Shown here piece by piece: positions 23,220 to 47,831 of a DNA stretch of 64,000 nucleotides. A program made the position numbers and the translations under genes. The notes beneath the pieces are model-generated. The model saw only the letters and a program-made list of their open reading frames with translations. It did no database searches and was not told the DNA's origin. Positions within the stretch are counted from its first letter, which is position 1; every line of letters begins with the position of its first letter. Source of the stretch: Parerythrobacter lacustris (GTDB lineage: Bacteria; Pseudomonadota; Alphaproteobacteria; Sphingomonadales; Sphingomonadaceae). The DNA is taken from NCBI RefSeq assembly GCF_024626475.1, contig NZ_JANKHH010000004.1, positions 62,001 to 126,000 on the forward strand. The letters run 5' to 3'.

Positions 23220-23246
23220 CTTCGAATCCTGCCTTGCCGGAGCCTC

Positions 23247-26177: not shown

Positions 26178-26822
26178 ATGCCGAAGTACCGTTCCACCGT
26201 CCTCCTCGCGAGCAGCGCGATCGCCGCGCTTGCATTGCAGGGCTGCGCCACATCCAGCGGCCCCGAACTGCCGCCGGCCAATGTCGTGCCGCTGCAGGAA
26301 GGGCCGGGCGAGGAATACATCATCGGCCCGATGGACGAGCTGACGATCCACGTCTGGCGCAACCCTGAACTCGGCGCCGAGAAGATCCAGGTCCGCCCCG
26401 ACGGGCGCATCACCACGCCGCTGGTGACCGACCTGCCGGCGGCGGGCAAGACCCCGACCATGCTGGCGCAGGATATCCGCCTGCAGCTCTCGCAATATAT
26501 CGAGGAGCCGCTGGTTTCGGTGATCGTCAACCAGGCGAACAGCACCTTTGGCCAGCAGATCCGGATCATCGGCGCGACCGAGAAGCCCGCTTCGATGCCC
26601 TATCGTGCGAACATGACCGTGCTCGACGCGATGATCGCAGTCGGCGGGCTCAGTGAATTCGCGGCTGGCAACCGGGCCAAGCTGATCCGCTTCGACAAGC
26701 AGAAGGGCCGGCAGGTCGAATACAGCCTGCGGCTCGGCGACCTGCTCAAGAAGGGCGAAAGCCGCGCCAACGTCCTGCTGATGCCGGGCGACGTGATCAT
26801 CATCCCGGAAAGCATGTTCTGA
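26178..26822 (+). CDS. XrtA-system polysaccharide export lipoprotein (Wza-like)
   Basis: A 214-residue outer-membrane polysaccharide export protein. Signal peptide with lipobox LALQGC (cysteine near residue 21). The export domain starts YIIGPMDELTIHVWRNPEL near 49-67, continues VRPDGRITTPLV near 74, and SLBB-like repeats follow (IRIIGATEKPAS near 134, LLMPGDVIIIPE at the end). Predicted to form the outer-membrane pore for the exopolysaccharide. The ATG at 26178 gives a proper signal peptide. First gene of the long plus-strand operon. Confidence 0.94.
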   Translation: MPKYRSTVLLASSAIAALALQGCATSSGPELPPANVVPLQEGPGEEYIIGPMDELTIHVWRNPELGAEKIQVRPDGRITTPLVTDLPAAGKTPTMLAQDIRLQLSQYIEEPLVSVIVNQANSTFGQQIRIIGATEKPASMPYRANMTVLDAMIAVGGLSEFAAGNRAKLIRFDKQKGRQVEYSLRLGDLLKKGESRANVLLMPGDVIIIPESMF

Positions 26823-26838
26823 GAAGGCGGCCGAGAGA

Positions 26839-28362: not shown

Positions 28363-28372
28363 GGAGCGAGAG

Positions 28373-29458: not shown

Positions 29459-29464
29459 CCCGCT

Positions 29465-31093
29465 ATGACGCGTCTCATCCTTCTTGCCGGCAGCGCGGTT
29501 TCCGTGCTGGCCCTTGTAACCCCTGCCGTAGCGCAGGAGAGCGAAGAGGGCCGCTCGCAGCGGACCACTGTTCAGCCCTATATCGAAGTGAGCCAGATCG
29601 GCGTGGTCACCCTCTCGCCCGACGAGGATGCGGTGACCTACACTCAGGCCGCGGTCGGGGTCGATGCGCAGGTCAACGGGCGCAACACCGGCGGCTCGCT
29701 GTCGATCCGCTACGAATACAACAAGAGTTATGACGACGACACGCCCGACAGCGACACCGTAAGCGGTGTGGCACGCGGTTACGCCTCGATCGTGCCGCAG
29801 GTGCTTACCGTCGACGTCGGCGGCCTTGCTGCGCGGACACGGGTCGACGGCAATGGCGGCGCGACGCTCAACCCGCTCAATGGCGAGGACAGCGAGAGCC
29901 GGATCTATTCCGCCTATGCAGGACCTACGCTCAACACACGGGCAGGCGATGTCGCCATCGCGGCGCAGTACCGCGTCGGATACACCAAGGTCGAGCAGCC
30001 GGATGCACTGGTGCTCACACCTGGCGCCGATCCGGTCGATGTGTTTGACGACAGCATCAGCCAGCGCGCCTCGGTGCATGTCGGGACCAGCCCCGGCGAG
30101 CCGCTGCCCATTGGCGTCGGCCTCGGGGCTGGCTGGGCGCAGGAAGATGTCTCCAACCTCGACCAGCGGGTGCGTGACATCTACGCGCGCGCCGATGTGA
30201 CCGTTCCGGTCTCGCATTCGGTCGCGCTGGTGGGCGGGATCGGCTACGAGGATGTCGTGGTTTCCAGCCGCGATGCGTTGCTCGACACCAACGGCCAACC
30301 GGTCATCGGCAACGATGGCCGTCTGGTGACCGACAAAAGCCAGCCACGCCAGATCGCGTTCGAGGCTGATGGCCTGATCTGGGATGCCGGGGTCGTCTGG
30401 CGGCCGAGCAGCCGCACTGCGTTCGAGGCGCACTACGGTCGCCGCTACGATTCGGACACCTACCATGGCAGCTTCGCCTGGGCGCCGAGCAGCCGCAGCT
30501 CGCTCAACGTGTCGGTCTACGATTCGGTTTCGGGCTTCGGCGGGCAGCTCAACACCGCGCTCGCCAACCTGCCGACCGAATTCAACGTCGCACGCAATTC
30601 GCTGACCGGCGATCTCGGCGGCTGTGTCGCCAGCGTCGAAGGCAGCCAGTGCCTCACCGGCGCGCTCGGTTCGGTCCGCTCGTCGGTGTTCCGCTCGCGC
30701 GGGGTTTCGGCCAGCTACACCACTGCAATCGGCCGGATGACGGCGGGAATCGGCGCGGGTTACGACCGGCGCAAGTTCCTCGCACCCGAAAACACCGTGC
30801 TCGCCGACGCGAACGGCGTGGTCGACGAAGCCTTCTACGGTTCGGTCTTCCTTTCGGGCGATCTGGGTCGCCGCGCCAATTTCAGCACCAACGCCTATGC
30901 CACCCTGTTGCAGAGCGGCTTCGACCAGCAGGGCGAAGTCCTGGCGACCGGTGCATCGGCTTCGTACAACCGGTCTTTGACCGACCGCCTGTCGCTGCGC
31001 GCGGCGGTTGCACTCGACCATATCGATAGTGACCTCGATCTCGAGGACCTGACCGCCGCATCGGGCCTGCTCGGCCTGCGCTACGGTTTCTGA
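29465..31093 (+). CDS. PEP-CTERM/XrtA-associated outer-membrane beta-barrel protein
   Basis: A 542-residue secreted protein with a signal peptide ending near PAVAQ (residue 23), rich in alternating polar/aromatic strands and ending in a terminal Phe (GLLGLRYGF), the classical outer-membrane barrel C-terminus. It matches by style and position the family of large barrels always found in XrtA loci, which may act in glycan secretion. One internal disulphide is possible (GGCVASVEGSQC near 380-391). It starts seven bases after the kinase stop. Confidence 0.88.
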   Translation: MTRLILLAGSAVSVLALVTPAVAQESEEGRSQRTTVQPYIEVSQIGVVTLSPDEDAVTYTQAAVGVDAQVNGRNTGGSLSIRYEYNKSYDDDTPDSDTVSGVARGYASIVPQVLTVDVGGLAARTRVDGNGGATLNPLNGEDSESRIYSAYAGPTLNTRAGDVAIAAQYRVGYTKVEQPDALVLTPGADPVDVFDDSISQRASVHVGTSPGEPLPIGVGLGAGWAQEDVSNLDQRVRDIYARADVTVPVSHSVALVGGIGYEDVVVSSRDALLDTNGQPVIGNDGRLVTDKSQPRQIAFEADGLIWDAGVVWRPSSRTAFEAHYGRRYDSDTYHGSFAWAPSSRSSLNVSVYDSVSGFGGQLNTALANLPTEFNVARNSLTGDLGGCVASVEGSQCLTGALGSVRSSVFRSRGVSASYTTAIGRMTAGIGAGYDRRKFLAPENTVLADANGVVDEAFYGSVFLSGDLGRRANFSTNAYATLLQSGFDQQGEVLATGASASYNRSLTDRLSLRAAVALDHIDSDLDLEDLTAASGLLGLRYGF

Positions 31094-31110
31094 CGCTGGG
31101 GGACGTAACA

Positions 31111-32256
31111 ATGTTCGACGATTTCTATGGGCTTACGGGGCGTCCGTTCCAGCTGACCCCCGACCCGAATTTCTATTTCGAGAGCACGACGCACCGCAAG
31201 GCGCTGTCGTACCTCGGCTATGGCCTCGCGCAGGCGGAAGGCTTCATCGTCATCACCGGCGAAATCGGCTCGGGTAAGTCGACTCTGGTCGCGCATCTGA
31301 TGCAGAAGATCGACCGCGAGCAAATGACCGTGGGCCAGGTGGTGACCAGCAACCTCGATGGCGAGGAACTGGTGCATGTCGCGGCGCAGAGCTTCGGGCT
31401 CGACGTCGAAGGCCACGACAAGGCAGCTGCGCTCGGTGCGATCGAGAGCTTCCTCCACGACGAAGCGCGCGCGGGCCGCCGCTGCCTGCTGGTGGTCGAC
31501 GAATCGCAGAACCTGTCGGTCGAGGCGCTCGAAGAGCTGCGCATGCTGTCAAACTTCCAGCTCGGCGCGCATCCGCTGCTCCAGCTGCTGCTACTCGGCC
31601 AGCCCGAATTCAAACAGGTCCTCGCGCAGCATGGCGAGCTCGAGCAGCTACGCCAGCGGGTGATCGCGGCGCATCATCTCGAAGCGATGGAGCCGGGTGA
31701 AATCGAGCCCTACATCAAGCACCGCCTCGAATGCGTCGGCTGGCAGGGCAACCCCGATTTCGACCAGCGCGTATTCGCCGAACTCTACACCGCGACCGGC
31801 GGTATCCCGCGCAAGGTCAACCAGGTGGTGACCCGCCTGCTGCTGCTCGGCGCGGTCGAGCAGCGTTCGCGGATCGACAACGCCATGCTGAGTTCCGTCC
31901 TGTCAGAAATGCAGCACGACAACGCTTTCCCCGAAGCCGCGCCCAAGCCGATGGAAAAGCTCTCGCCGGCTCCCCCGCCAGGCCCGGTCAAGCACGTTGC
32001 CTACCCGCAGCCAGCGCCTCCCGTGCGGGTCGAGGCCCTGCTGGCAGAGCGTGACGCACAGATCTCGGAATTGCAGCAGGCGGTCGTCGAGCTGGCCGAA
32101 AGCGTCGAGAACGGCAGCGGAAGCGGATCGGACGAGATCAAGCACCGGATCGATGCGCTCGAACAACGGCTCGAAGAGCAGGAGCGCATGGTGCGCCACG
32201 TCCTGACCATGATGATCGAATGGATGGAAAGCAGCCAGTCGCGCGCTGCTGCCTGA
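31111..32256 (+). CDS. XrtA-associated AAA ATPase (ExeA-like)
   Basis: A 381-residue ATPase beginning MFDDFYGLTGRPFQLTPDP, the ExeA-type leader. Walker A is GEIGSGKST with Lys56, Walker B is CLLVVDESQNLS near 128, sensor region LLLLGQPEF near 157, and ATGGIPRKVNQ near 228. The C-terminal 100 residues have a Pro-rich linker and a coiled coil (QISELQQAVVELAESV). Probably energises or regulates assembly at the inner membrane; the partner is unknown. Confidence 0.93.
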   Translation: MFDDFYGLTGRPFQLTPDPNFYFESTTHRKALSYLGYGLAQAEGFIVITGEIGSGKSTLVAHLMQKIDREQMTVGQVVTSNLDGEELVHVAAQSFGLDVEGHDKAAALGAIESFLHDEARAGRRCLLVVDESQNLSVEALEELRMLSNFQLGAHPLLQLLLLGQPEFKQVLAQHGELEQLRQRVIAAHHLEAMEPGEIEPYIKHRLECVGWQGNPDFDQRVFAELYTATGGIPRKVNQVVTRLLLLGAVEQRSRIDNAMLSSVLSEMQHDNAFPEAAPKPMEKLSPAPPPGPVKHVAYPQPAPPVRVEALLAERDAQISELQQAVVELAESVENGSGSGSDEIKHRIDALEQRLEEQERMVRHVLTMMIEWMESSQSRAAA

Positions 32257-32269
32257 GGAGTTCCGACCG

Positions 32270-33172
32270 ATGAAACATGCGCCGATCGAGGCTGCTCCGG
32301 TCGTCAATGGCCCGATCGTCAACGGCCTGTCGGTCGATGTCGAGGACTGGTTCCAGGTCGGTGCGTTCGAGAACGTCATCGGGCGCGGCGACTGGGACAG
32401 CCTGTCGCTGCGCGTCGAGGACAACGTGCTGCGCATCCTCGACCTGTTCGACGAGGCGGAAGTCAAGGCGACTTTCTTCACTCTCGGCTGGGTGGCGAAG
32501 CGCCATGGCGCGCTTATGCGGCGGATCGTGGAAGCGGGGCATGAACTGGCCAGCCACGGTTACGATCATGCGCGGGTCTTCACCTTCGACCGGAAGGAAT
32601 TCGCCGAAGATATCCGCAAGGCGCGGACTATCCTCGAGGATGCTTCGGGTGCGAAGGTGATCGGCTATCGCGCACCGAGCTTCTCGTTCGACCAGCGCAC
32701 CCCATGGGCCTATATGGAACTCGCCGAGCAGGGCTACGCCTATTCTTCCAGCGTCGCACCGGTGGCGCATGACCATTATGGTTGGAAGGAAGCTCCGCGC
32801 TTCGCGTTCAAACCGCTGCCGTGGTCCGATCTGGTCGAAATCCCGGTCACCACAGCGATTCTCGGCGGCAAGCGGGTCGCGGCGGGGGGCGGGGGCTTCT
32901 TCCGCGTGCTGCCCTACGGCTTCTCGCGCTGGGCGATCCGGCAGGTCAACCGCCGAGATGCCCGGCCGGCAGTGTTCTATTTCCACCCGTGGGAGATCGA
33001 TCCCGACCAGCCGCGCGTCCCCAATGCGCCGATCAAGTCGCGGCTGCGGCACTATACCAATCTCGACCGGATGGCCCCCAAGTTGCGCGAACTGGTGCAC
33101 GAATTCGCCTGGGGGCGAATGGACGTGCTGGCGCACCGTGAGGCGGCCATCGCGGAAGAGCTGGCGGCGTGA
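32270..33172 (+). CDS. XrtA-system polysaccharide deacetylase (DUF3473-containing)
   Basis: A 300-residue NodB-type deacetylase. Metal and catalytic motifs: LSVDVEDWFQ near 20-29 (Asp), ATFFTLGWVAKRH near 67, LASHGYDHARVF near 92 (two His), and YRAPSFSF near 132. The C-terminal DUF3473 part has FYFHPWEIDPDQP near 240. It should remove acetyl groups from the exopolysaccharide. No signal peptide is visible, so it acts in the cytoplasm or at the membrane. It overlaps the FemAB gene by four bases. Confidence 0.94.
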   Translation: MKHAPIEAAPVVNGPIVNGLSVDVEDWFQVGAFENVIGRGDWDSLSLRVEDNVLRILDLFDEAEVKATFFTLGWVAKRHGALMRRIVEAGHELASHGYDHARVFTFDRKEFAEDIRKARTILEDASGAKVIGYRAPSFSFDQRTPWAYMELAEQGYAYSSSVAPVAHDHYGWKEAPRFAFKPLPWSDLVEIPVTTAILGGKRVAAGGGGFFRVLPYGFSRWAIRQVNRRDARPAVFYFHPWEIDPDQPRVPNAPIKSRLRHYTNLDRMAPKLRELVHEFAWGRMDVLAHREAAIAEELAA

Positions 33173-34233
33173 ATGCGCCTTTTCCCCTGGCCATGGAGAC
33201 GGTGAGCCTCGTCGACCTGCGCGATCCCGGTGAGGTTGCGCGGATCGAAGGCTTCGTCGCCGAACACAGGGGGAGCCTGTTTCATCGCCCGGCATGGCTG
33301 CACGCGGTCGAACAGGGGACGGGGCAGCGCGCGTTGGGGCTGGTTGCCGAGAAATGCGGATCGCTCACCGGCTGGTTACCCTTGACCGATGTCCACTCCC
33401 CGCTGTTCGGGCGGGCGCTGGTTTCTAGCGGTTTTGCCGTTGGCGGCGGGCCGCTGGCTGAGCGCGAGAGCACCGCAAAACAGCTCTGCCGCTCGGCACA
33501 GGAAATGGCTGTTCGCCTCTCCTGCTCGGGGATCGAACTTCGCTCGGGCGGCGCTCCGGCGGACTGGGAAAGCTGGGATCACACCCACTGCGGTTTCGAG
33601 CGGGCGCTCGCCGACACCGACGAAGCCGAACTGCTGGCGGTGCCGCGCAAGCAGCGCGCCGAAGTGCGCAAGAGCCTCGATCTCGACCTTGATGTCTCGG
33701 TCGGCAGCGGGCCACAAGATCGGGCAGCGCATTATGCGGTCTATGCCGAAAGCGTGCGCAATCTCGGTACGCCCGTTTTCCCGCGCAGCCTGTTCGATGC
33801 GATGCTCGACCGGTTCGGCGACGATGCGGACATCATGACAATCCGCCATCGCGGTGAGGCGGTGGCGAGTGTGCTTTCGTTCTACCATCGCGGCGCGGTG
33901 TTGCCGTATTGGGGCGGCGGCACCCTTGCCGCCCGCGTCCTGCGCGCCAACGAGCGGATGTATTTCGAACTCATGCTGCATGCGCGGCGCAAGGGCTGCG
34001 ATAGCTTCGACTTCGGACGCTCGAAAACCGGTAGCGGACCTTACAGTTACAAGAAGAACTGGGGTTTCGAGCCCCAACCGCTGAGCTACGCGCGCTGGAC
34101 CGCGCCGGGCGCGACGCCGCGCGACATCGATCCGACCAGCGACGCCTATTCGACAAAGATCGCACTGTGGAAGCGGTTGCCGCTTGCCGTCGCGAATGCT
34201 GTGGGTCCGCATATCGCCAAAGGACTGGCGTGA
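33169..34233 (+). CDS. XrtA/PEP-CTERM system FemAB-family protein
   Basis: A 354-residue double-GNAT-fold protein of the FemAB class. Landmarks: EHRGSLFHRPAWLHAVEQ near 29-46, LPRKQRAEVRK-like segment (VPRKQRAEVRKSL) near 158, NLGTPVFPRSLFDAML near 198, and SFDFGRSKTGSGPYSYKKNWGFEP near 283. Presumed to transfer an aminoacyl or acyl group, perhaps onto the glycan precursor. It starts with GTG in a GTGA overlap with the deacetylase stop and ends in a TGATG overlap with the glycosyltransferase. Confidence 0.92.
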   Translation: MNAPFPLAMETVSLVDLRDPGEVARIEGFVAEHRGSLFHRPAWLHAVEQGTGQRALGLVAEKCGSLTGWLPLTDVHSPLFGRALVSSGFAVGGGPLAERESTAKQLCRSAQEMAVRLSCSGIELRSGGAPADWESWDHTHCGFERALADTDEAELLAVPRKQRAEVRKSLDLDLDVSVGSGPQDRAAHYAVYAESVRNLGTPVFPRSLFDAMLDRFGDDADIMTIRHRGEAVASVLSFYHRGAVLPYWGGGTLAARVLRANERMYFELMLHARRKGCDSFDFGRSKTGSGPYSYKKNWGFEPQPLSYARWTAPGATPRDIDPTSDAYSTKIALWKRLPLAVANAVGPHIAKGLA

Positions 34234-35465
34234 TGGGCGAAATCCTGTTCCTCGCGCACCGGATCCCGTTTCCGCCAGATCGCGGCGACAAGATCCGTTC
34301 GCACCACCTGCTGAGGGCGCTAGCAGCCATCGCGCCGGTCCATGTCGCGACCTTTGGCGAAACCGATGCCGACATGCTGGCTGAACTTGAGCTGGCGGCG
34401 GTCGCTGCATCGCACCGGCTGGTCCGCCGCACCAAGCCGCTGAACCGGGCAGGGATCGAGGCGCTGCTCTTCGCCAAGCCGGTCAGTCTTACGGCGTTCG
34501 ACCATCAGGACCTGCGCACATGGATCGCGCGAGTGCTTTCCGAACGGCCGATCGACACGATCTTCGTCTTTTCCGGCCAGATGGGCCAGTACATTCCGCC
34601 GGACTTCGCCGGGCGCGTGGTGGTCGATCTATGCGACGTCGATTCCGCCAAGTTCGAAGCCTATGCGGAAAAAGGTCACCCGCCGCGTTCGATCATCGAC
34701 CGGCGCGAAGGAAAACTGCTGGCGAAGGAAGAATCCTGCCTGGCCGCGCGCGCCGAACGGGTGTTGCTCGTCAGCGCGAACGAAGCCGCATTGTTCCGGG
34801 GCCGGATCGCTGCACCGATGCAAGGCAAGGTAGCGGCGCTGCGCAACGGGATCGACGCAAGGTTCTTCGACCCGGAAAAGGCGGGCGGGGAGTCACCCTT
34901 TGATGGGCAAGTGGGGCCGCATTTGGTCTTTACAGGCCAGATGGATTACCCGCCCAACATCGCGGCGGTCACGCGGGTTGCCCGCTCAATTCTTCCGGAA
35001 ATCCGCAAGACCCATCCCGACGCCCGTTTCCACATCGTCGGCCGCGCGCCGACCGAGCAGGTCCGGCGGCTCGGGCAGATCTCCGGAGTCGAGGTGTGGG
35101 GCGAAGTGCCCGATGTGCGGCCCTATCTCGCCCATTGCGACGTAGTCCTTGCGCCGCTCATGATCGCGCGCGGGATCCAGAACAAGGTGCTCGAGGCGAT
35201 GGCGATGGCGCGGCCGGTCGTCCTGTCGCCCGAGGCCGCCAACGGCATTGATGGCGGGGACGGCGAGCATTTCCTCGTGGGCCGCGACGATGCCGCGCTG
35301 ACCGGCCACATTCTTGATCTGTTGGCCGATCCCCAACGGGCAGGCGCAATTGGCCTTGCAGCACGCGAGTACGTGGTCGCCCACCAGAGCTGGGAAGCGA
35401 TGCTGAAGGGCATGGCCGCGATCGTCGGGCGTGAACCGGAAAACGAGGCACGCCGTGTCGCCTGA
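34233..35465 (+). CDS. XrtA-system glycosyltransferase (GT4-like)
   Basis: A 410-residue glycosyltransferase: N-terminal FLAHRIPFPPDRGDKIRSHH near 5-24 is the family signature; the Rossmann C-terminal half has LVFTGQMDYPPNI near 231, HIVGRAPT near 269 and APLMIARGIQNKVLEAMAMARPVV near 308, the donor-binding region. Expected to add a sugar to the repeat unit on the cytoplasmic face. Start overlaps the FemAB stop; the end overlaps the exosortase start by 11 bases. Confidence 0.93.
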   Translation: MGEILFLAHRIPFPPDRGDKIRSHHLLRALAAIAPVHVATFGETDADMLAELELAAVAASHRLVRRTKPLNRAGIEALLFAKPVSLTAFDHQDLRTWIARVLSERPIDTIFVFSGQMGQYIPPDFAGRVVVDLCDVDSAKFEAYAEKGHPPRSIIDRREGKLLAKEESCLAARAERVLLVSANEAALFRGRIAAPMQGKVAALRNGIDARFFDPEKAGGESPFDGQVGPHLVFTGQMDYPPNIAAVTRVARSILPEIRKTHPDARFHIVGRAPTEQVRRLGQISGVEVWGEVPDVRPYLAHCDVVLAPLMIARGIQNKVLEAMAMARPVVLSPEAANGIDGGDGEHFLVGRDDAALTGHILDLLADPQRAGAIGLAAREYVVAHQSWEAMLKGMAAIVGREPENEARRVA

Positions 35466-37008
35466 AGCCGCCGCCGCAATGCCTCAGGCGGGCAAGTCGC
35501 TCCTGACGGCCTGGCGCAGCGGGTTGATCCGGCTTGCCGCCGCGTGGCTCGCGCTGGGTATCGCCACCTGGCGCGACTGGGCGGCGATGCTCGACCAGTG
35601 GTGGAACATCTCGACCTATAATCACATCCTGTTCGTCCCGCTGATCGTCGGATGGCTGATCCATTTGCGCCGCCGCGAACTGGTGGAGATCGAGCCCGCG
35701 CCTTGGTGGCCGGGTCTCGCCCCGCTGGCTGCGACAATGCTGGTCTGGCTGATCGGTTCGGTTGCCGGGGTCAATATCGTCAGCCAGACCGGCGCGGTGG
35801 CGAGCCTGATCGTGATCGTGCCCGCCATCCTCGGTCCGCGCGTCGCGCTCGCCTGTGCTTTTCCGCTAGCCTACCTCCTGTTCCTCGTTCCATTCGGCGA
35901 CGAGATGGTCCCGACCCTGCAAATGGTCACCGCCGACATTGTTATCTGGCTGACCCACCTGAGCGGGATCGAGGCGGTAATCGACGGCGTGTTCATCGAC
36001 ACACCAGTGGGCCTGTTCGAAGTTGCCGAGGCCTGCTCGGGCGTCAAATTCCTCGTTGCCATGATCGCGCTTGGCGTGCTGGTCTGCTACGCCTGCTTCC
36101 GGGGCTGGATGCGCCGTGCGATCTTCATGACTGCCGCGATCGCTCTGCCGATACTTGCCAATGGCGTCCGCGCATGGGGCACGATCTTCATCGCGCAGTC
36201 GCAGGGCATCGAATTTGCCGTGGGCTTCGATCACATATTTTACGGCTGGGTGTTCTTCGCCATTGTCGTGTTCCTGCTGCTGGCGGCATTCTGGCGCTGG
36301 TTCGACCGCGAACCCGACGAGCTCGGCCTCGATTTTCAGGACCACGTCCATAGCGACTGGTTGGCCCGGCTGTCCGGCGCGGATGCGAAACCCCAGGCGC
36401 ATCTCGCTTCGGTTGTTGCGCTGCTTTCGGTCGTGTTCGCCTGGAACCTCTCCGTCTCTTCGGTCGAGGCGGCTATCCCGGAGCAGATCGAATTGCCGCA
36501 GGTGAATGGCTGGCAGCGCGTTGACCCTGTGTCGCAGGTGGATTGGCAGCCGCGCTTTGCGGGGGCCGATCATACTCTGTTCGGGCGCTACCGCGACGCA
36601 GCGGGGCGCGAAGTGGATGTCGCCTATGCGCTCTACGCTGCGCAATCCGAGGGTCGCGAAGCTGGCGCAGCGGGCGAGGGCGCGCTGATTCCCGACACCC
36701 CGTGGCGCTGGGTCGCGCCCTGGATCACCGATACCGAAGCCATGGGCGAAGAGTTGATGGCCTATGGCGACCTGCGCCGCCATGCGGTCACCAGCTACCG
36801 CACCGGTGATACGCTGACCGGCAGCGCGGCGCGTCTCAAGCTGCACTCGATGAAGGGTCGATTGACCATTGCCGGCGAGCCAACCATGACCCTCATCCTT
36901 TCGGTCGAGGGAACCGATAGCCGAACTGCCGAGCAGACCATCGCCGATTTCACCGCAGCTACCGGTGATCGCGGCGAATGGATGGACCGCATCGCCGGGC
37001 TGCGATAG
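35455..37008 (+). CDS. xrtA: exosortase A fused to an EpsI domain
   Basis: A 517-residue protein. Residues 1-290 are the polytopic exosortase with the cysteine-transpeptidase triad: Cys194 in EACSGVKFL, Arg239 in NGVRAWG, His260 in GFDHIFYGW. These would cleave PEP-CTERM sorting tails at the membrane. Residues from about 315 on are a periplasmic EpsI-like domain (PQVNGWQRVDPVS, GREVDVAYALY, LKLHSMKGR), elsewhere a separate gene. The GTG at 35455 with GAGG six bases before is chosen; GTG 35431 and ATG 35479 are alternatives. No PEP-CTERM substrate is encoded in the window. Confidence 0.95.
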   Translation: MSPEAAAAMPQAGKSLLTAWRSGLIRLAAAWLALGIATWRDWAAMLDQWWNISTYNHILFVPLIVGWLIHLRRRELVEIEPAPWWPGLAPLAATMLVWLIGSVAGVNIVSQTGAVASLIVIVPAILGPRVALACAFPLAYLLFLVPFGDEMVPTLQMVTADIVIWLTHLSGIEAVIDGVFIDTPVGLFEVAEACSGVKFLVAMIALGVLVCYACFRGWMRRAIFMTAAIALPILANGVRAWGTIFIAQSQGIEFAVGFDHIFYGWVFFAIVVFLLLAAFWRWFDREPDELGLDFQDHVHSDWLARLSGADAKPQAHLASVVALLSVVFAWNLSVSSVEAAIPEQIELPQVNGWQRVDPVSQVDWQPRFAGADHTLFGRYRDAAGREVDVAYALYAAQSEGREAGAAGEGALIPDTPWRWVAPWITDTEAMGEELMAYGDLRRHAVTSYRTGDTLTGSAARLKLHSMKGRLTIAGEPTMTLILSVEGTDSRTAEQTIADFTAATGDRGEWMDRIAGLR

Positions 37009-37018
37009 GGCGCGCGCC

Positions 37019-38917
37019 ATGTGCGGGATCGCGGGCATCTTTCATCACGGCACGGCCAAGCCGGTCGATCCTATGCGGGTCGAGCGGATGTGCGACGCGC
37101 TGGTTCATCGCGGCCCTGACGGATCGGGTGTGTGGACCGTGCATGGCATCGGCCTCGGTCATCGCCGCCTCTCCATCATTGATCTCGCCGGCTCTCCGCA
37201 ACCGATGCATTCGGTCGACGGGCGCGCGGTGATCGTGTTCAACGGCGAGATTTACAACTACCAGGAACTGCGCCGCGAACTCGTTGCCGATGGGGCGAAG
37301 TTCCGCACGCAGGGCGATACCGAAGTCATCCTCGCGGCATGGCAGCGCTGGGGCGTCGGTTGCCTCGAACGGCTGCATGGCATGTTCGTCTTCGCAATCT
37401 ATGACCTCGACAAGAAGCAGTTATTGCTCGCGCGCGACCGGCTGGGGGTGAAGCCGTTGTTTACCGTGCAGCTTAGCGACGGGAGCCTCGCCTTCGCGTC
37501 TGAGCTGAAAGGCCTGCTGGCGCATCCGCTGCTCCGCCGCGAGGTCGATCCGCTGGCGATCGAGGACTACATGACCTGGGGTTACGTCCCCGATCATCGC
37601 AGTTTCCTCAAGGGTGTGAGCAAGCTCCCCGCCGGGCATTTCCTTCTGCTCGAGCAGGGCAAGGGAATGCAGCCGACGCGACAGTGGTGGGACATCGATT
37701 TCCGCCACCGCCACAAGGGCAAGGCGGAAGACCTGTCGGTCGAACTGCTGCACCACCTGCGCAGCGCGGTGACCTCGCGCATGGTGGCGGATGTGCCGCT
37801 GGGCGCGTTCCTTTCGGGCGGGGTCGACTCCTCTTCGGTGGTTGCGCTGATGGCCGAAGCGAGCGCCGAGCCGGTACGGACCTGCTCGATCGGATTCGAT
37901 GTCGCCGCGCTCGACGAAACCGCCTATGCCGATCAGGTCGCCAGGCTCTTTCATACCGATCACCGTTCGCGGCAGGTCGATCCCGACGATTTCGGGGCGA
38001 TCGATACGCTTGCCGGGATGTTCGACGAGCCCTTTGCCGATGCTTCCGCATTGCCGACCTGGCGGGTCAGCCAGCTGGCGCGCGAAACGGTGACAGTGGC
38101 CCTGTCGGGAGATGGTGCGGACGAAGCCTTTGCTGGTTACCGCAGGCAGGTGTTCCATGCACGCGAGGAACAGGCGCGGGCGGTGCTGCCGCAGGCGCTC
38201 CGGGGGCCGGTGTTCGGCGGACTGGGTAAGGTGTGGCCGAAGGCGGACTGGGCACCGCGGCCCTTGCGGGCAAAGTCGACCTTGCTGTCGCTCGCGGGTG
38301 AAGGCGAGGCGGGATACGCCGCCGCGCTCGCGGTTACCACGCCGATGCAGCGCGGTGCGATCTATTCGCAGCGGTTCGCTAAAGGGCTGGGCGGCTATCG
38401 CGGCGAGCAGCCATTCATTGATCTGATGCGCAAGGCTCCGGCCACCAGCGGGCTCGACCGGGCGCAATATGCCGATCTCAAGTTCTGGCTTCCGGGCGAT
38501 ATCCTGACCAAGGTCGATCGCACCAGCATGGCGGTAAGTCTGGAGGCACGCGAGCCGCTGCTGGACCACAGGTTGATCGAGTTCGCCGCCGGCCTGCCGC
38601 ACCGCCTGCGCATTCGCGGCTCGCAGGGCAAATGGCTGCTCAAGCACACGATGGAGCGCTATCTGCCGGAGGATATCCTCTACCGCCCGAAGCAGGGTTT
38701 CGTGACCCCGATCAGCCACTGGTTTCGCGGCCCGCTGGCGGGAGAGGCGCGAGCCCTGGCAGACAGCTCGCTCGCCGTGCGCGCAGGATGGTTCGAACGC
38801 GGGAGCGTTGCCCGGATTGCAGAGCAGCATATCGCCGGAACATCGGACCATGGCCGGCTGCTGTGGCAACTGGTGATGCTCGAAAGCTCGCTCAGGCATC
38901 TCAAGGTTTCCGCCTAA
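37019..38917 (+). CDS. XrtA-system amidotransferase (asparagine-synthetase-like)
   Basis: A 632-residue class II glutamine amidotransferase. The N-terminal nucleophile is Cys2 (MCGIAGIFHHG), with RGPDGSG near 33-39 and VVFNGEIYN-like VFNGEIYNYQE near 76. The synthetase half has the PP-loop LGAFLSGGVDSSSVVAL near 262, VALSGDGADEAFAGY near 361 and LPGDILTKVDRTSMA near 494. It should amidate a glycan or precursor. Last of the continuous eps operon; the ATG lies 11 bases after xrtA. Confidence 0.95.
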   Translation: MCGIAGIFHHGTAKPVDPMRVERMCDALVHRGPDGSGVWTVHGIGLGHRRLSIIDLAGSPQPMHSVDGRAVIVFNGEIYNYQELRRELVADGAKFRTQGDTEVILAAWQRWGVGCLERLHGMFVFAIYDLDKKQLLLARDRLGVKPLFTVQLSDGSLAFASELKGLLAHPLLRREVDPLAIEDYMTWGYVPDHRSFLKGVSKLPAGHFLLLEQGKGMQPTRQWWDIDFRHRHKGKAEDLSVELLHHLRSAVTSRMVADVPLGAFLSGGVDSSSVVALMAEASAEPVRTCSIGFDVAALDETAYADQVARLFHTDHRSRQVDPDDFGAIDTLAGMFDEPFADASALPTWRVSQLARETVTVALSGDGADEAFAGYRRQVFHAREEQARAVLPQALRGPVFGGLGKVWPKADWAPRPLRAKSTLLSLAGEGEAGYAAALAVTTPMQRGAIYSQRFAKGLGGYRGEQPFIDLMRKAPATSGLDRAQYADLKFWLPGDILTKVDRTSMAVSLEAREPLLDHRLIEFAAGLPHRLRIRGSQGKWLLKHTMERYLPEDILYRPKQGFVTPISHWFRGPLAGEARALADSSLAVRAGWFERGSVARIAEQHIAGTSDHGRLLWQLVMLESSLRHLKVSA

Positions 38918-39065
38918 GACTCTGGAAAGGAGTCACAATCCTTCTAGATCGGCCCAATCTGGTGCAGCTTCGAAAAAGCGGCGGAAAATAATAGTTTGCC
39001 AACAGAGTCCTGCGTCCTGTAGTTTGCACCGGAACAACAACCGCATTCATGATGAGGGGTCGTCA

Positions 39066-40025
39066 ATGGATCGTGTCGGGCCAGGTCTGGAAAACGTCGC
39101 GAGCGAGGCAGCGGAGTCGGTCGATCCGGTGATGCCGCTCGACCAGCGGGACGAAGCTTTTGTAATGCGAAGCGCGATGCCCGAGGGTATCCCGCAAGCC
39201 CTGTTCGAACTGACCCAGCTCGAAACCTTCTACCAGGAAGAATATCAGGCGCTCTGGAGCTATATGCGCCCCAATGGGCGCCCGAGCTTCACCCCGCCGA
39301 TGCTGGGGGAATTCGAACGCTGGCAGGACCTGATCGGAAAGAGCTTCGGCTCCGGCGGCGTTCCGCTGCGCTATCTCATCCTCGGTAGCCGCTCGCCCGG
39401 AGTGTTCTGCTTCGGCGGCGATCTCGACCTGTTCCAGCGCCTCATCCGCGATCGCGATCGCGACGGGCTGGTGCGTTACGGCCACCGCTGCTGCAAAATA
39501 CTCCACCGCAACATGAACACGCTCGACATTCCGATGTTGACCATCGGGCTGGTCGAAGGCGCGGCGCTCGGTGGGGGGTTCGAAGCGTTGCTGTCGTTCG
39601 ACTATATCGTGGCGGAGCGCGATGCCACCTTCGGCCTGCCCGAGGTGATGTTCGGCCTGTTTCCCGGCATGGGCGCGCATGCTTTCCTCAGCCGCAAGCT
39701 GGGCAGCGCGATGGCCGACCGGCTGATCGTGTCGAACGAAACCTATACCGCCGAACAGATGTACGAGATGGGCCTCGTCCATGTGCTCGCCGAACCGGGT
39801 GAGGGGCTCAATGCCTGCCGCGAATTCATCCGCAAGTCTGAACGGAGGCATGCCGGCCTCGTCGGCGCGCGCAGGGCGACCAGGATCGCGTGGAACCTAG
39901 AATTGCAGGAACTGACCCGGATCACCGAACTGTGGGCCGACACCGCGCTCCAGCTGAGCGAGCAGGACCTGCGGATCATGAACCGGCTGACCAGCGCGCA
40001 GCAAAGGCTCGCCGACGCCGCCTAG
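39066..40025 (+). CDS. rpfF: RpfF-like crotonase, putative DSF-family signal synthase
   Basis: A 319-residue crotonase-fold protein whose sequence follows RpfF: FYQEEYQALWSYM near 55, RYLILGSRSPGVFCFGGDLDLF near 102-123 (shown in two parts RYLILGSRSPG and VFCFGGDLDLF), GAALGGGFEALLS near 166, LPEVMFGLFPGMGA near 191. The two catalytic glutamates of RpfF correspond to Glu173 and Glu193, keeping the 20-residue spacing. RpfF makes cis-2-unsaturated fatty-acid signals from acyl-ACP. The N-terminal 45 residues are extra. AGGGG lies eight bases before the ATG. No RpfC/RpfG receptor is nearby. It may instead supply an acyl group to the XrtA locus. Confidence 0.85.
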   Translation: MDRVGPGLENVASEAAESVDPVMPLDQRDEAFVMRSAMPEGIPQALFELTQLETFYQEEYQALWSYMRPNGRPSFTPPMLGEFERWQDLIGKSFGSGGVPLRYLILGSRSPGVFCFGGDLDLFQRLIRDRDRDGLVRYGHRCCKILHRNMNTLDIPMLTIGLVEGAALGGGFEALLSFDYIVAERDATFGLPEVMFGLFPGMGAHAFLSRKLGSAMADRLIVSNETYTAEQMYEMGLVHVLAEPGEGLNACREFIRKSERRHAGLVGARRATRIAWNLELQELTRITELWADTALQLSEQDLRIMNRLTSAQQRLADAA

Positions 40026-42385: not shown

Positions 42386-42517
42386 GGTCCGCCGAGTCCT
42401 GTTGCTTCGCCAGACTTTCTAGCGTTTCGTGCCAAGAGAGCAAGGCGGCGAACATGCAAGTGTCGCAACGCCCGATCGCCCGCTTGCAAGAATGGGATAG
42501 TGACCCAAGTGAACAAT

Positions 42518-43264
42518 ATGGACGGTGCAGGACAGCAGGTTGGCACATGGCCGCGGTGTGCAGCGATCTTCGGTGCTTCCGGGGGGATCGGTTCGGCACT
42601 GTGCAGCGAACTCGCCGCGCGTGGCGTGGCAACGATTCACGCCGGAAGTCGTAGCGGTCGCGTGCCGCAAGACCAGGCGATTCGGCCTTTTCGTTTCGAG
42701 CTCGAAGACGAAACCTCGATCTCGGCAGCAGCCGATGCCATGCGGAATGCGCCGCCCGATCTGGTGATCGTGGCGAGCGGTGTCCTGACCTTGCCCGATG
42801 GAACCGGGCCGGAGCGCAGCTACAAATCGCTCGATCCGGTTGTCATGGCGCGGGTGTTCGCCGCCAACACCATCGGTCCGGCTCTTGTTGCCAAGCACAT
42901 GCTGCCGCTCCTGCCGCGCGACCGGCGAGCGGTCCTTGCAGCCTTGTCGGCCCGGGTCGGCTCGATCGGTGACAACCGCGTGGGGGGATGGCACAGTTAC
43001 CGCGCGAGCAAGGCGGGGCTCAACATGCTGGTCCGCAACTTTGCCATCGAACTCGGTCGGACCCACAAGCAGGCGGTGGTCGTGTCATTGCATCCGGGCA
43101 CGGTCGACACGGCCCTGTCGGAGCCGTTCCGGGCCAATCTGCCTGATGGGCAACTGACGGACCCGGACGGCGCAGCGCGCAATCTGCTCGGCGTGATCGA
43201 TGGCCTCATCCCCGCCGACAGTGGGCAACAGTTCGACTGGAAGGGCGGGCGGGTTCCGGATTAG
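42518..43264 (+). CDS. short-chain dehydrogenase/reductase (C-factor-like)
   Basis: A 248-residue Rossmann oxidoreductase. The NAD(P) motif is FGASGGIGSALC near 17-28. The catalytic set is LSARVGSI (Ser) near 142 and YRASKAGLNML (Tyr, Lys) near 160. VVVSLHPGTVDTALSEPF near 186 is typical of the C-factor/CsgA-like group. Substrate unknown. No Shine-Dalgarno is evident: ATG 42518, GTG 42509 and GTG 42500 are all possible starts. Divergent from sdhB across about 130 bases. Confidence 0.88.
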   Translation: MDGAGQQVGTWPRCAAIFGASGGIGSALCSELAARGVATIHAGSRSGRVPQDQAIRPFRFELEDETSISAAADAMRNAPPDLVIVASGVLTLPDGTGPERSYKSLDPVVMARVFAANTIGPALVAKHMLPLLPRDRRAVLAALSARVGSIGDNRVGGWHSYRASKAGLNMLVRNFAIELGRTHKQAVVVSLHPGTVDTALSEPFRANLPDGQLTDPDGAARNLLGVIDGLIPADSGQQFDWKGGRVPD

Positions 43265-43424: not shown

Positions 43425-44228
43425 TCAAGCGGACGGGAGGGGTTTGCGGCTCGGCAACAGCTCTTCGCACACGGCGTAGGTTCGCTCGTTGTCGACATCG
43501 ATCGCCAGCGCGCCGTCGGCGAAGAATGTCGCTTCCATGGTGATCCCGAACCGCTTGCCGACGCGGCGGATGGCGCTGGGGGCGGAGACGAGCTTGAGGC
43601 CCATGAGCGCGATGTTGAACAGGCCGAAGGCGCGGATCATCCGGTCGCGGTTCTTCTGAAACTGCCCGCCCTCGCGAAACGCCTCGGCGGCGGCGAAGGC
43701 CTTGCGATTGGCAAGGCCATAGATGTTGCAATTGGCGTAACCGCCGTCGCGAAATTCGTAGAAGTTGCGCTGGCCCTCCGGATGGGCGGTGCGCACATCC
43801 TCCGCGCGCGCAAGCGCAAGGGTCGCATCGGCCCGTGCCATTGTCGACCTAACTTGTTCGAAGCCGTCCTCGCTCAGCAGCACGTTGTCGGCTGTGGTGA
43901 TGACGAAGGGACCTTCGTCGTCTTTCGCCGCAGCGGTCACGCTGTCGACGATGCCGTGATGCGAATCGACGAATAGGATCTTTGTCCCGCAATCGGCATA
44001 GCGACCGAGCAGCTTGCCCACTTCGGCCTGCGCCTCCGGCTCGATCGAGATGCGGATTTCGGAGAGGTTGCTGCGCGATGTGACTGTGTCGAGCACCCAT
44101 TCGATCAGCGGTTTGCCGCAGATCGGGGCGAGGCACTTGTGCGATACCCCTGCGCGTTCGGCGAGCGGGTTGACAACACCGGCGCGCTGCGCGGCGAGGA
44201 TGATGACTATGGCCGGTCGGTCGCTCAA
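43425..44228 (-). CDS. nucleotidyltransferase (NTP-transferase/MobA-like)
   Basis: A 267-residue GT-A-fold nucleotidyltransferase. The N-terminal signature is IVIILAAQRAGVVNPL near 6-21 with the sugar-site HKCLAPICGKPLIEWVL near 30; the metal aspartate region is FVITTADNVLLSEDG near 107. The canonical G-x-G-x-R/K loop reads AAQRAGVVNP, unusual. It presumably activates a small alcohol or phosphate with NTP; the substrate is unknown. It lies three bases after the ATP-grasp gene on the same strand, so the two form an operon. Confidence 0.8.
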   Translation of the reverse strand: MSDRPAIVIILAAQRAGVVNPLAERAGVSHKCLAPICGKPLIEWVLDTVTSRSNLSEIRISIEPEAQAEVGKLLGRYADCGTKILFVDSHHGIVDSVTAAAKDDEGPFVITTADNVLLSEDGFEQVRSTMARADATLALARAEDVRTAHPEGQRNFYEFRDGGYANCNIYGLANRKAFAAAEAFREGGQFQKNRDRMIRAFGLFNIALMGLKLVSAPSAIRRVGKRFGITMEATFFADGALAIDVDNERTYAVCEELLPSRKPLPSA

Positions 44229-44231
44229 GGC

Positions 44232-45239
44232 TTACTCCATCAATCCGTGGCGGCGCAGGCTTTCGGCGAGGATCGTCTCGATCAGCTGTTCCTGCGTCCA
44301 GCCCGCCAGAACCGCCGCGCGGCCAAACACCTTCTCGGACCACAGATTGCAATTGAGATTGAGCTCGAGGAAGGTGATCTCGCCGGTCTGCTCATTCACG
44401 CGGAATTCGAACCTGCCGTAATCGAACGGCCGGTAATCCTCCCACGCCAGCCGCGTATAGTCGGCGATTCGCGCGATCATCGCCTGGTCCTCGAACGGGT
44501 CGAGCGAGTATTTCTGGCTCCGGTCGACCAGGTCGCGCTTTTCCTGATAGGTCCGCAGATGCGACGGATCGGCCTGGCGGAAGATGAGCATCGGCAGGAT
44601 TTGCGGCTGGCCGTCGATCGTCACCACCGGCACCTCGACATCGCTGCCGTCGATGAAGGGCTCAACGATGGCATCGTGGCCCAGCGCTTGGACCCCGTGC
44701 ACCGCGGCCTTGACGCTGTCCCAGTCGGTTGCATCATGCACGCCCCAGCTGGCGCTGGAGTTGTTGGGCTTGACGACGAAGCGTTTTCCCTCGGGGCATT
44801 TGGCCGGATCGACCGGTGCACCGCGGCGATAGATCGCCCAGGGCGCAGTCGGCACACCAGCGCTGCGCACCGCCATCTTGGCCAGATGCTTGTCGTCCGA
44901 CAGGCCGCGGATGATCGGGCTGGCACCAAGGTAGGCGATCTCGGCGCGTTCGCACAGCAGCGGGCACAGCATCTCCGAATTGAAGAACCCCGCGCGGTTG
45001 AGCAGCGGGAAGACGAAATCGACATCGGGCTTGTCCCACAGGATGTCGAAATTGTTCGAGATCTTGAGGTTCAGGCCGAGGCCGCTCAACACCTGCGACA
45101 TTTCGCGATGGTACTTCGCATGGTTGCCGTCTTCGGGATTGCCGGTGCCGTCCCAAAGGGCGTTCTTGGCGAGGAAAAGGATGCGAATCCGTTTCTTCGC
45201 GGCAGCAGAGATGGTCTTCGGAGCGGGAAATGCCGGCAA
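44232..45239 (-). CDS. ATP-grasp ligase (D-Ala-D-Ala-ligase-like), paralogue 1
   Basis: A 335-residue ATP-grasp protein. IRILFLAKNALWDG near 19-32; PEDGNHAKYHREM near 35; FVFPLLNRAGFFNSEML near 75; the ATP-binding lysine loop FVVKPNNSSASWGVHD near 153; VEPFIDGSDVEVPVV near 193; and metal/ATP residues in FLELNLNCNLWSEKV near 298. It should join an amine to a carboxylate through an acyl phosphate. It is about half identical by eye to the protein at 46809-47831. The TTG start follows AAAGG. Substrate unknown. Confidence 0.85.
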   Translation of the reverse strand: MPAFPAPKTISAAAKKRIRILFLAKNALWDGTGNPEDGNHAKYHREMSQVLSGLGLNLKISNNFDILWDKPDVDFVFPLLNRAGFFNSEMLCPLLCERAEIAYLGASPIIRGLSDDKHLAKMAVRSAGVPTAPWAIYRRGAPVDPAKCPEGKRFVVKPNNSSASWGVHDATDWDSVKAAVHGVQALGHDAIVEPFIDGSDVEVPVVTIDGQPQILPMLIFRQADPSHLRTYQEKRDLVDRSQKYSLDPFEDQAMIARIADYTRLAWEDYRPFDYGRFEFRVNEQTGEITFLELNLNCNLWSEKVFGRAAVLAGWTQEQLIETILAESLRRHGLME

Positions 45240-45336
45240 GTCGTGCGACCTTTAAAGTTCTTCGTAGACCGGCCCCATAAATCCGCTATTCCCCAAAAGA
45301 AACCATAATACGGGCGGGGCATACAAAGGGTCGCAT

Positions 45337-46802
45337 ATGCAGCCGCTAAACACCACGGCACCTGTTTCCTCAATCCAGTGCCAGCCATCCCATGATCGTG
45401 CGATCGAATTGCTGTCGTCGGGCGGCGATGCACGCATCCTGGTCGATCCGGCATCGTGCCTCAACCAGTACCTTTCCACCCCCTATCCGCGCGAGGTGAT
45501 CGCCTACGCTTCATCGACGGCGAACGATATAGGTGCGGACGCCTTTGCGCGGGTGGTTGCATTGGTCGAAGCGGGGCTGGATGACTACACCTGTGCTCTG
45601 GAAGCGATGCGGGTGCGGTTGCGCAGGATCTTTGCGCTCGACCGCGATTGCGATGTCGTGTTTGCTGCCTCGGGAACGGATCTCGAATACGTGCCACTCG
45701 CCGGTGTCGCGGACGCTGCGATGGGCGGGGTGCACAACATCCTCCTCGGCGCGGATGAGGTCGGCAGCGGCTGCATCCATTCGGCACGCGGACGCCATTT
45801 TGCCGACCGCACGCCGCTTGGCATCACATCGGAAAGCGGAGCCCCGGTGGACGGGCTGGCGCGGGTTTCGCTGGTCGACATAGCTGGCGTTCGGCTTCGG
45901 GCACAGTGCGAACATCGGGCGAAATCGAAGCGGATATCTCGTGCGAGATCGAACAGGCGCAGAAACGGGGGAAGCACGCACTGGTGCATCTGGTCCACGG
46001 CTCGAAGACGGGCCTGATCCTGCCCCGGCTCGACGCGCTGGACCGGCTGATGGTGCGGTGGTCCGGCGCGGCCAGTTTCGTGATCGATGCCTGCCAGGTC
46101 CGCATCGCGCCCGGGATGGTTGGCAGCTATCTCGAACGCGGCGCCATCGTGATGCTCACCGGCTCGAAGTTCGTCGGCGGCCCGCCCTTCAGCGGGTTTG
46201 CGCTCGTTCCGCCGCAGTGGAAGGCACGGGCGGGCAATGTGCCGTCCGGCCTCGCGCGCATATTTCGCCGGGCCGAATGGCCGGCGGACTGGCCAGGCGT
46301 CGCTTGCTTGCCCGAAACCGGGAATCCCGGCTTGCAGTTGCGGCTGGAGGCTTCGTTATTCGAGCTCGAAAGGTTCGCCGCGCTCCCGGTCGAACGGGCA
46401 GAGAGCGTGATCGCTGCGTTCGGCGCAGCGATTGGCGACCATTTGCTCGCAATCGAAGGCATCGAAATCGTTTCGCCGTGCGAGCCGGGTTTGTCCGGGG
46501 AGGCCGAGGACCACCCGCTCGAAATGCGTACGCTCGTCACTCTGGACGTTTCGTCGATGCCGCAGGCCCGCACGTTCGACGATGCACAGGCGTTGCATCG
46601 CCGGATCGCCTGTGCCGGGATCAGGCTCGGCCAGCCGGTGCGCTGCCGCAAGCTGGCGGACGGCTGCTGGGCTGGCACACTGCGGATCGGACTGTCGATG
46701 CCGCAAATTGTTGTGCTGGCTGCGCTCGACGACATGGCGATGCGCGAAGTGCTGGCATCCGACATGCGCCGCATCGCTGCGGTGTTCGACCTCGCGAGCT
46801 GA
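45337..46802 (+). pseudogene. PLP-dependent aminotransferase-like gene with a single frameshift
   Basis: Two frames together encode one fold-type-I PLP protein of about 488 residues. The first part (45337 to about 45900) has LVDPASCLNQYL and VVFAASGTDLEYVPL (phosphate-binding region). The second (from about 45903 to 46802) has FVIDACQVRI (Asp/Gln over the pyridine ring) and LTGSKFVGGPPFSG with the Schiff-base lysine at 46167-46169. The frame changes at the GGG run 45899-45901: adding one G restores VRLRGTVRTSGEIEADI. Both halves are otherwise intact and free of stops. This could be a very recent mutation or a sequencing error. It lies between two ATP-grasp paralogues on the opposite strand. 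Function unknown. Confidence 0.8.
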
Positions 46803-46808
46803 TTTGAC

Positions 46809-47831
46809 TCAGGCGGTGGGCGCGATCAGCCCGGTCCGCCGCCAGCTTTCAGCCAATAGCGTTTCGAGCAGATCGGCGTGGCTGAAGCCAGCGTATCCCG
46901 CCGCCTTGGCCATCACCTTCTCCGACCAAAGATTGCAGTTGAGATTGATCTCGATGAAGTTGAACTCACCGGTTTTGAGATCAAGGCGGAACTCGATGCG
47001 GCCATAATCGAACGGCAGCAATTCGCGCGCGACCTTGCTCGCCAATTCGGTGATCTTCGGCGCAAATTCGGGGTGCTCGAAGGTCTTGAGCGCGGCTTTC
47101 TCGGTGTTCTGCACCAAGTCGCGCTTTTCATAGTAGGTCCACAGTTTCTGCGTGTCCTCACGCTCGTACCACAGCATCGGCAGTGCGACAGGCCGGTCCT
47201 TGATGGTGATGAAGGCGCACTGGATATCATAGCCGTCGAGATAGGGCTCGACGATCGCATCATGGCCCTGACCGTGGATATTGGCGATGGCATTGGTGAC
47301 ACCGTTCCAGTCGAAGGCGTCGGAAATGCCCCAGCTCGCGGATGAGGCGTTGGGCTTGATCACCCAGCGGCCATCGGGCGCGGCGGGCAGATCGTTTTCC
47401 AGCACGGGCGCGCCGCGGCGATAGCAGAACCAGTCCGCAGTCGGCACGCCGGCATGCGTCGCGACCAGCTTGGAGACGGATTTGTCGTCCCCCAAACCGC
47501 GCAGGAACGGCATGGCCCCGAGGTAGGGGATGCGGTGCATGTTGCACAGCAAAGGGATCAGCATCTCGCTGTTGACGAAACCGCCGCGATTGAGCAGCGG
47601 AAAGACGAAATCGGTGTCGGGTTGTTCGAACAGCGTCTTGTAGGTGTTCGACAGGCGAAGGTTTAGTCCGAGGTTTTCCAGCGTCGTGCGCACTTCGTGA
47701 TGATAGATCGCATGATTGCCGTCTTCCGGGTGCATCCCGCCGCCGAACAAAGCGTGCTTGGCCATGAACAGAAGCCGCACCCGTTCCTTCGCTTCGGCCG
47801 GGATACGAAGGGGTTCGATTGCACGGGTCAT
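46809..47831 (-). CDS. ATP-grasp ligase (D-Ala-D-Ala-ligase-like), paralogue 2
   Basis: A 340-residue ATP-grasp protein with the same order as the gene at 44232-45239: VRLLFMAKHALFGGG near 18, PEDGNHAIYHHEV near 35, FVFPLLNRGGFVNSEML near 76, WVIKPNASSASWGISD near 156, VEPYLDGYDIQCAF near 197, and FIEINLNCNLWSEKV near 302. The strongly shared blocks show gene duplication, while the middle (substrate-facing) part differs, so the two may act on different partners or in sequence. ATG 47831 follows AAGGATC. Convergent with the frameshifted PLP gene. Confidence 0.85.
   Translation of the reverse strand: MTRAIEPLRIPAEAKERVRLLFMAKHALFGGGMHPEDGNHAIYHHEVRTTLENLGLNLRLSNTYKTLFEQPDTDFVFPLLNRGGFVNSEMLIPLLCNMHRIPYLGAMPFLRGLGDDKSVSKLVATHAGVPTADWFCYRRGAPVLENDLPAAPDGRWVIKPNASSASWGISDAFDWNGVTNAIANIHGQGHDAIVEPYLDGYDIQCAFITIKDRPVALPMLWYEREDTQKLWTYYEKRDLVQNTEKAALKTFEHPEFAPKITELASKVARELLPFDYGRIEFRLDLKTGEFNFIEINLNCNLWSEKVMAKAAGYAGFSHADLLETLLAESWRRTGLIAPTA

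Follow-up and report, generated by a model that had tools for sequence, protein, structure and literature searches.

What might a bacterium assemble with two related ATP-grasp ligases, an enzyme of the pyridoxal phosphate (PLP) type and a nucleotidyltransferase that are encoded side by side? This question is raised by a compact gene group in a 64,000-nucleotide stretch of Parerythrobacter lacustris DNA (G000:C7:62001-126000, hereafter the window), which belongs to a genome of 3.06 Mb in 12 contigs. We find that these genes form part of a module that is conserved, mainly in one alphaproteobacterial order. The reading that we prefer, and to which we assign a probability of roughly 0.45, is that the module makes an amino-acid-amidated, nucleotide-activated precursor of the cell envelope, and that the PLP enzyme and one of the ligases constitute an optional branch. 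Below, AG denotes the ATP-grasp ligase genes, NTase the nucleotidyltransferase and PLP the PLP-type gene between AG1 and AG2; G numbers identify genomes (G000 being that of the window) and L numbers identify loci, or stretches around relatives. The features at this locus are as follows.

43425..44228, minus strand: NTase, a MobA-like nucleotidyltransferase of 267 amino acids (aa) that matches PF12804
44232..45239, minus strand: AG1, a 335-aa ATP-grasp ligase (PLP-associated type) with a TTG start, PF07478 at 53.9 bits
45240..45336, no strand: 97-bp spacer separating AG1 from the divergent PLP gene, taken from the gene coordinates
45337..46017, plus strand: N-terminal piece of PLP, homologous to about 45,885 and out of frame beyond that point
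45906..46802, plus strand: C-terminal piece of PLP in a different reading frame that is open from 45,759, with the predicted PLP lysine in TGSKF
46809..47831, minus strand: AG2, the second ATP-grasp ligase, 340 aa, from a clade often found without PLP, PF07478 at 48.8 bits

On the minus strand AG1 is followed three bases later by NTase, an arrangement already given correctly in an initial annotation of this DNA, which also recognized that the two ligases are related (52-54% identity). A first neighbourhood set comprised 17 loci around AG1 relatives, one of them from G000. In the 16 loci from other genomes, PLP is divergent to AG1 in five and an NTase lies within the stretch in nine. A wider genome scan found 329 AG1 relatives, the best 80 of which are used for all locus counts given here; their gene calls are uncurated picks of the longest open reading frame (ORF), and some starts are wrong. 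Of these 80 stretches, 22 contain NTase and eight contain a second AG. The informative names among the 80 belong to what we take, with the family labels of the tree, to be sphingomonad genera. Because these loci are the nearest relatives of AG1, their share of PLP genes is biased upward, and a draw of 296 genomes from the same order provides the less biased sample. This draw contains PLP in 37 genomes, AG in 89, NTase in 209 (113 at E<1e-65) and the flippase discussed below in 114. Presence was called at E<=1e-25 for NTase and E<=1e-30 for the flippase, and the cut-offs for strong matches (E<1e-65 for NTase, E<1e-90 for the flippase) were picked after the tables had been seen.

Three features of this sample tie the genes together. 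First, AG occurs in 36 of the 37 PLP genomes (Fisher p ~1e-20, computed, like every Fisher value here, ignoring kinship), and in all 36 genomes with both genes the two are divergent neighbours whose match ends lie 94-302 bp apart. Second, a strong NTase is found in 86 of the 89 AG genomes versus 27 of the 207 that lack AG; no strong relative was detected in the AG genomes G092, G093 and G118. Third, the distance between NTase and AG is at most 280 bp in at least 44 of the 89 AG genomes (gaps up to 277 bp), a lower bound, since these pairs, like the NTase-flippase pairs below, were picked by eye from match tables. The neighbourhood check that the initial annotation proposed thus shows its genes to belong together in relatives. 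Its further proposal that one amine is ligated twice does not hold in general, because two AG matches occur together in only six of the 89 AG genomes (G000, G006, G178, G191, G281 and G301), and the second match of G191 is fragmentary, lying where a contig begins.

Beyond the order AG is uncommon, being present in three of 289 genomes drawn from the class (G000 included) and six of 200 drawn from the phylum (G000 and a member of its family included), and PLP occurs in three of 190 class-draw genomes, again including G000. One of the six phylum-draw genomes, G680, is a member of the class that is not marked as belonging to the same order; it carries a strong AG match (E 6.7e-132) at L178 7472-8515, and this 16-kb stretch contains no match to NTase or PLP. 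The locus L145 (3521-6664), from another alphaproteobacterial family, has a gene for an ATP-binding cassette (ABC) substrate-binding protein with a distant AG gene on each side, and sensor-like membrane proteins are encoded around them.

Such linkage need not imply a joint function. Two unrelated units, NTase/AG2 and PLP/AG1, could have been inserted at a permissive site between sdhB and rne, and it is true that AG1 and AG2 fall in separate starred clades of the tree (the long branches were flagged by the tool), that AG2 and NTase are adjacent without PLP in L033 (from the same genus) and L031, and that many genomes hold only one of the units. We regard this explanation as improbable: PLP/AG1 and NTase are also neighbours in nine loci with no sdhB in the stretch (L079, L092, L096, L099, L101, L109, L110, L112 and L113), and a strong NTase accompanies PLP in 35 of 37 genomes versus 78 of the 259 without PLP.

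The ligases themselves are close in architecture to D-alanine--D-alanine ligase (Ddl; TIGR01205, PF07478). An AlphaFold2 model of AG1 (mean predicted local distance difference test score, pLDDT, 88.2) superimposes on Pseudomonas aeruginosa DdlB with a Z score of 30.6 and 2.5 A over 300 residues at 22% identity, and an alignment of 19 AG proteins with the Ddl of G000 shows that the Lys, Glu and Asn of the ATP/Mg core and the arginine of the GR motif are kept. What differs is the substrate side. The motifs ERxVS, GEDGxxQG, EGSSVG, YDxxAKY and NTxPGMT, which we take to define Ddl and to include the residues that hold its two D-alanines, are replaced in the AG proteins by EDGNHAxYHxE, NRxGFxNSE, SSASWG, TYxEKR and NLNCNLW. 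TIGR01205 scores of the two window proteins (73.8 and 71.6 bits) lie far under the cut-off of 245.65, so that ordinary D-Ala-D-Ala ligase was rejected as an identity; tight grouping with that ligase was one of the outcomes that the initial annotation named as refuting. Glutathione synthetase, the other group named there, was not among the family, sequence or fold matches listed in general scans, which included no test aimed at it. We conclude that the AG proteins are predicted amide ligases built on a re-specialised Ddl fold. AG2 is 90% identical to a protein of the same genus in L032.

This fold leaves room for an offshoot of cell-wall or D-amino-acid metabolism, in which an epimerase or racemase-like class V PLP enzyme would feed a D-amino acid to a divergent D-Ala-D-X ligase and thereby alter peptidoglycan or a similar stem. 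Ddl is indeed the nearest solved fold, and one relative of PLP (L172) lies beside genes for D-alanine aminotransferase and a D-aminopeptidase. We nevertheless consider such an offshoot to be quite unlikely, given that G000 possesses its own Ddl over the cut-off (253.2 bits), that every Ddl substrate motif compared is replaced in AG, and that the gene linked to AG encodes an NTP transferase and not a Mur ligase.

The NTase exceeds the cut-off for PF12804 (40.9 bits against 27), and its family profile matches TTHA0179 (PDB 2dpw) with an E value of 9.5e-18. Residues K31, D114, D244 and D246, which presumably have catalytic roles, are invariant in 11 sequences. The protein thus keeps the nucleotide-site motifs of the MobA-like NTP transferases, a group that includes TTHA0179, IspD and KdsB, but it lies far below the cut-off of every NCBIfam model that it touches (IspD, 16.8 versus 181.3; MobA, 16.7 versus 151.85), and we therefore rejected its assignment to a named equivalog (IspD, MobA, GlmU or RmlA). 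G000 and G004 each have a single NTase match, located beside AG. In G001, from the same genus, a different NTase that is 40% identical to the window protein sits beside the flippase gene, which looks like one NTase paralogue standing in for another.

It is this flippase that points toward the envelope. The homologue from L120 matches PF01943 (Polysacc_synt) with 44.8 bits, over the cut-off of 28.2 for this family of Wzx-type polysaccharide flippases, and an NTase of the same family lies within 350 bp of an L120-type flippase gene in at least 33 genomes (within 75 bp in 30 of these). Several arrangements bring the flippase to the ligases as well. The island of G178, from sdhB to rne, contains AG2, NTase, flippase, AG1 and PLP in a row, the flippase being 30% identical to the query; in G188 the order is flippase-PLP-AG1-NTase; in G310 the flippase gene is divergent to AG1-NTase at a distance of about 1.3 kb; and in G007 a PF01943 gene adjoins AG-NTase. 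A sugar-transfer-associated ATP-grasp gene (PF14397) lies between NTase and AG in G020. Within family f1, the flippase is present in 47 of 69 AG genomes. G000 encodes its flippase outside the window, at C1:520522-521775, with no NTase beside it, and because of this gene the four-gene set of the initial annotation, whose members are indeed linked, is incomplete as listed. The role in making envelope precursors that was suggested there gains support from the linked flippase. Many AG genomes carry the NTase at a site apart from AG; at L119, L120, L122, L126, L128 and L131, the NTase-flippase pair is not beside AG but near valine-catabolism-like or Nmad3 genes.

We propose that the core of the module consists of the Ddl-fold amide ligase and the MobA-like NTase, joined in many members of the family to which the window genome belongs by the Wzx-type flippase. 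The NTase would attach a nucleotide to a phosphorylated sugar or small molecule and so activate it. AG would use ATP to form an acyl phosphate and join an amino-acid-like carboxylate to an amine on the activated unit. Where the flippase is present, the finished lipid-linked unit would be flipped outward for use in an envelope glycoconjugate. An optional branch would add the PLP enzyme, which might supply a modified, perhaps epimerised, amino acid to AG1.

The PLP family is itself distinctive. Its alignment of 42 members contains 64 invariant columns, and most members are ~465-520 aa long. No Pfam or NCBIfam match was obtained for the lead member, the window pieces have no PF00266 match at E<=1, and only two of the 42 members touch PF00266 at E<=0.1, with a best E of 0.0099. 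A structure model of the L022 homologue (pLDDT 91.4) nonetheless retrieves class V enzymes at the top of a fold search, namely NifS, 2-aminoethylphosphonate transaminase and alanine-glyoxylate transaminase, with Z scores of 21-24 at 9-19% identity; the best match has a Z score of 23.9 over 338 residues at 3.4 A. Family residues K277 (the predicted PLP lysine), D250 (the predicted cofactor aspartate) and R456 align with the Lys, Asp and C-terminal Arg of three class V proteins from G000, and the aligned class V motifs appear here as SGTD, DACQ, TGSK and LRxxxS. K277 and D250 are invariant in the 42 members and are also kept in ten distant relatives, in which R456 was left uncounted as L169 is unaligned at that end. 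The modelled PLP protein is thus of fold type I with class V architecture, which it shares with the enzymes of PF00266, although most listed chains of those enzymes span only ~350-390 aa. The label 'aminotransferase' used in the initial annotation survives as a fold assignment only. A cysteine desulfurase (NifS/SufS) was rejected: the two members shown have no Cys where the catalytic one of the C-terminal loop would align.

Searches of plasmids with the L022 protein returned distant rhizobial relatives only (33 records, 27-37% identical); the four annotated regions read label them hypothetical. Two distant relatives on rhizobial plasmids, from S. medicae and R. jaguaris, lie directly after giant genes for nonribosomal peptide synthetases (NRPS) or NRPS/polyketide synthase (PKS) hybrids (L170 14998-16533 and L173 12019-13515). 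L171, from the plasmid searches, and L175, from the class draw, each place a relative in tandem with a pyridoxal-dependent decarboxylase gene, with the two PLP enzymes side by side. We also considered the PLP gene as viral cargo and set this aside, as none of 29 pattern matches in viral_contigs was confirmed.

A number of observations weigh against our preferred reading. Outside family f1 none of the 20 AG genomes has the flippase, inside it 22 of the 69 lack it, and 67 genomes have the flippase without AG; for these reasons its partnership may be with the NTase alone. The flippase pairs with NTase, but no recurring glycosyltransferase was noticed beside the genes, most of the listed neighbours not having been run against the family library. 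Among the 37 PLP genomes, the sole exception to the presence of AG is G238, which has a divergent PLP relative. No PLP match exists in 53 of the 89 AG genomes and, as the gene is also split in the window, the core does not need PLP. The distant PLP relatives adjoin NRPS genes or decarboxylases and not polysaccharide genes. Common descent could account for much of the linkage seen at the sdhB site. Finally, the envelope assignment draws on gene context and fold, from which the substrates of all components are predicted.

Some of these points would suit a soluble or secreted product. PLP and AG could build a modified dipeptide, or a similar small amide, to which the NTase would add a nucleotide or phospho group, and the flippase would then be a general associate of this NTase family. 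In favour of this reading, the 20 AG genomes that lie outside family f1 have the flippase in no case yet a strong NTase in 18, and the S. medicae and R. jaguaris relatives have NRPS and NRPS/PKS neighbours. We nonetheless judge such a metabolite to be unlikely, though a good deal less so than the two alternatives above, in view of the side-by-side NTase and flippase genes in at least 33 genomes and of the flippase gene that directly adjoins AG or PLP in G178, G188 and G007.

An envelope precursor could also be part of something larger. One speculative and rather doubtful extension is that sphingomonads have a parallel route of envelope assembly, in which an unusual amino acid from the new PLP enzyme family, its attachment by a re-tooled Ddl-type ligase, activation of a carrier by the NTase and export by the flippase would yield an undescribed amino-acid-amidated surface polymer. 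Such a route would resemble, on a small scale, the pathway to cell-wall precursors.

The PLP gene of the window requires separate comment. The initial annotation was right to place it on the plus strand between the ligases, but the gene does not read through in a single frame: the N-terminal part belongs to the frame of 45337-46017, and the C-terminal part to that of 45759-46802. A family-profile search gives two overlapping matches, model positions 11-203 for the first piece and 189-489 for the second, and the break must therefore lie near 45,885-45,905. Since the pieces retain 62 of the 64 invariant family columns (the exceptions are a serine that has changed and an arginine located at the break), the break is either recent or an assembly error. 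No slippery heptamer of the kind expected for a programmed frameshift was seen near 45,885 by reading the sequence, which is weak evidence.

Comparison with the other loci places this break in context. A PLP match adjoins AG1 in 76 of the 80 loci; none is found beside AG1 in L039 (at a contig end), L075, L082 and L088. It is a single open frame of more than 1 kb in 71 and full-length in 69, because the frame stops early in L078 and the gene of L099 passes into a different frame. The others are cut by a contig end (L118), short at contig ends (L053 and L077) or apparent remnants (L069 and L070). Given the remnants at L069 8529-11005 and L070 9381-9602 and the frame change at L099 8425-9790, each with an open AG1 beside it, the window genome is not alone in having a damaged PLP. 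Among the 37 PLP genomes, G297 also has one internal stop. Relative to the trend set by AG1, the window pieces are ~3-10 points less identical than predicted to the nearest loci listed, 12 in number. The average over 67 loci is unremarkable, with a lower mean residual in 21 of the 67, and so the comparison does not establish a long decay. The frame break probably disables the PLP branch in this strain, in which AG1, AG2 and NTase remain open. That AG1 is still open could mean that PLP was lost recently, that AG1 has a second substrate, or that the break is an assembly error.

Two other groups of window genes lie nearby. A short-chain dehydrogenase gene (42482-43264) is located between sdhB and NTase and has relatives in 14 of the 80 stretches. 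At lower coordinates, positions 22245-40025 hold an apparent XrtA/PEP-CTERM exopolysaccharide cluster with an RpfF-related crotonase at its end; its XrtA amidotransferase matches TIGR03108 with 932 bits, and the other assignments come from reading the ORFs. This cluster was considered as a partner, its amidotransferase gene ending ~4.5 kb away, and was not counted as part of the module because it is present in only 27 of the 80 stretches, some of which are short.

The kinds of enzyme encoded here are familiar, and their combination and the PLP family appear to be undescribed within the literature and family models searched. AG1, AG2, NTase and the PLP pieces of the window reach no NCBIfam cut-off, and no account of the gene set was found in a literature search whose coverage mostly excluded subscription journals. 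A survey of amidoligases by Iyer and colleagues (2009) may reportedly have touched some ATP-grasp neighbourhoods. A role in anti-phage defence was rejected, with 0 PADLOC families for P0001, P0002, P0003, P0006 and the L120 flippase.

The PLP proteins thus constitute a clear and widely kept family, tied to a re-specialised Ddl-fold ligase. Because the co-occurrence table identifies which genes should be deleted or expressed, the question of what this module makes is directly testable. The identity of its product would add chemistry, and possibly a surface molecule, to a large group of bacteria.

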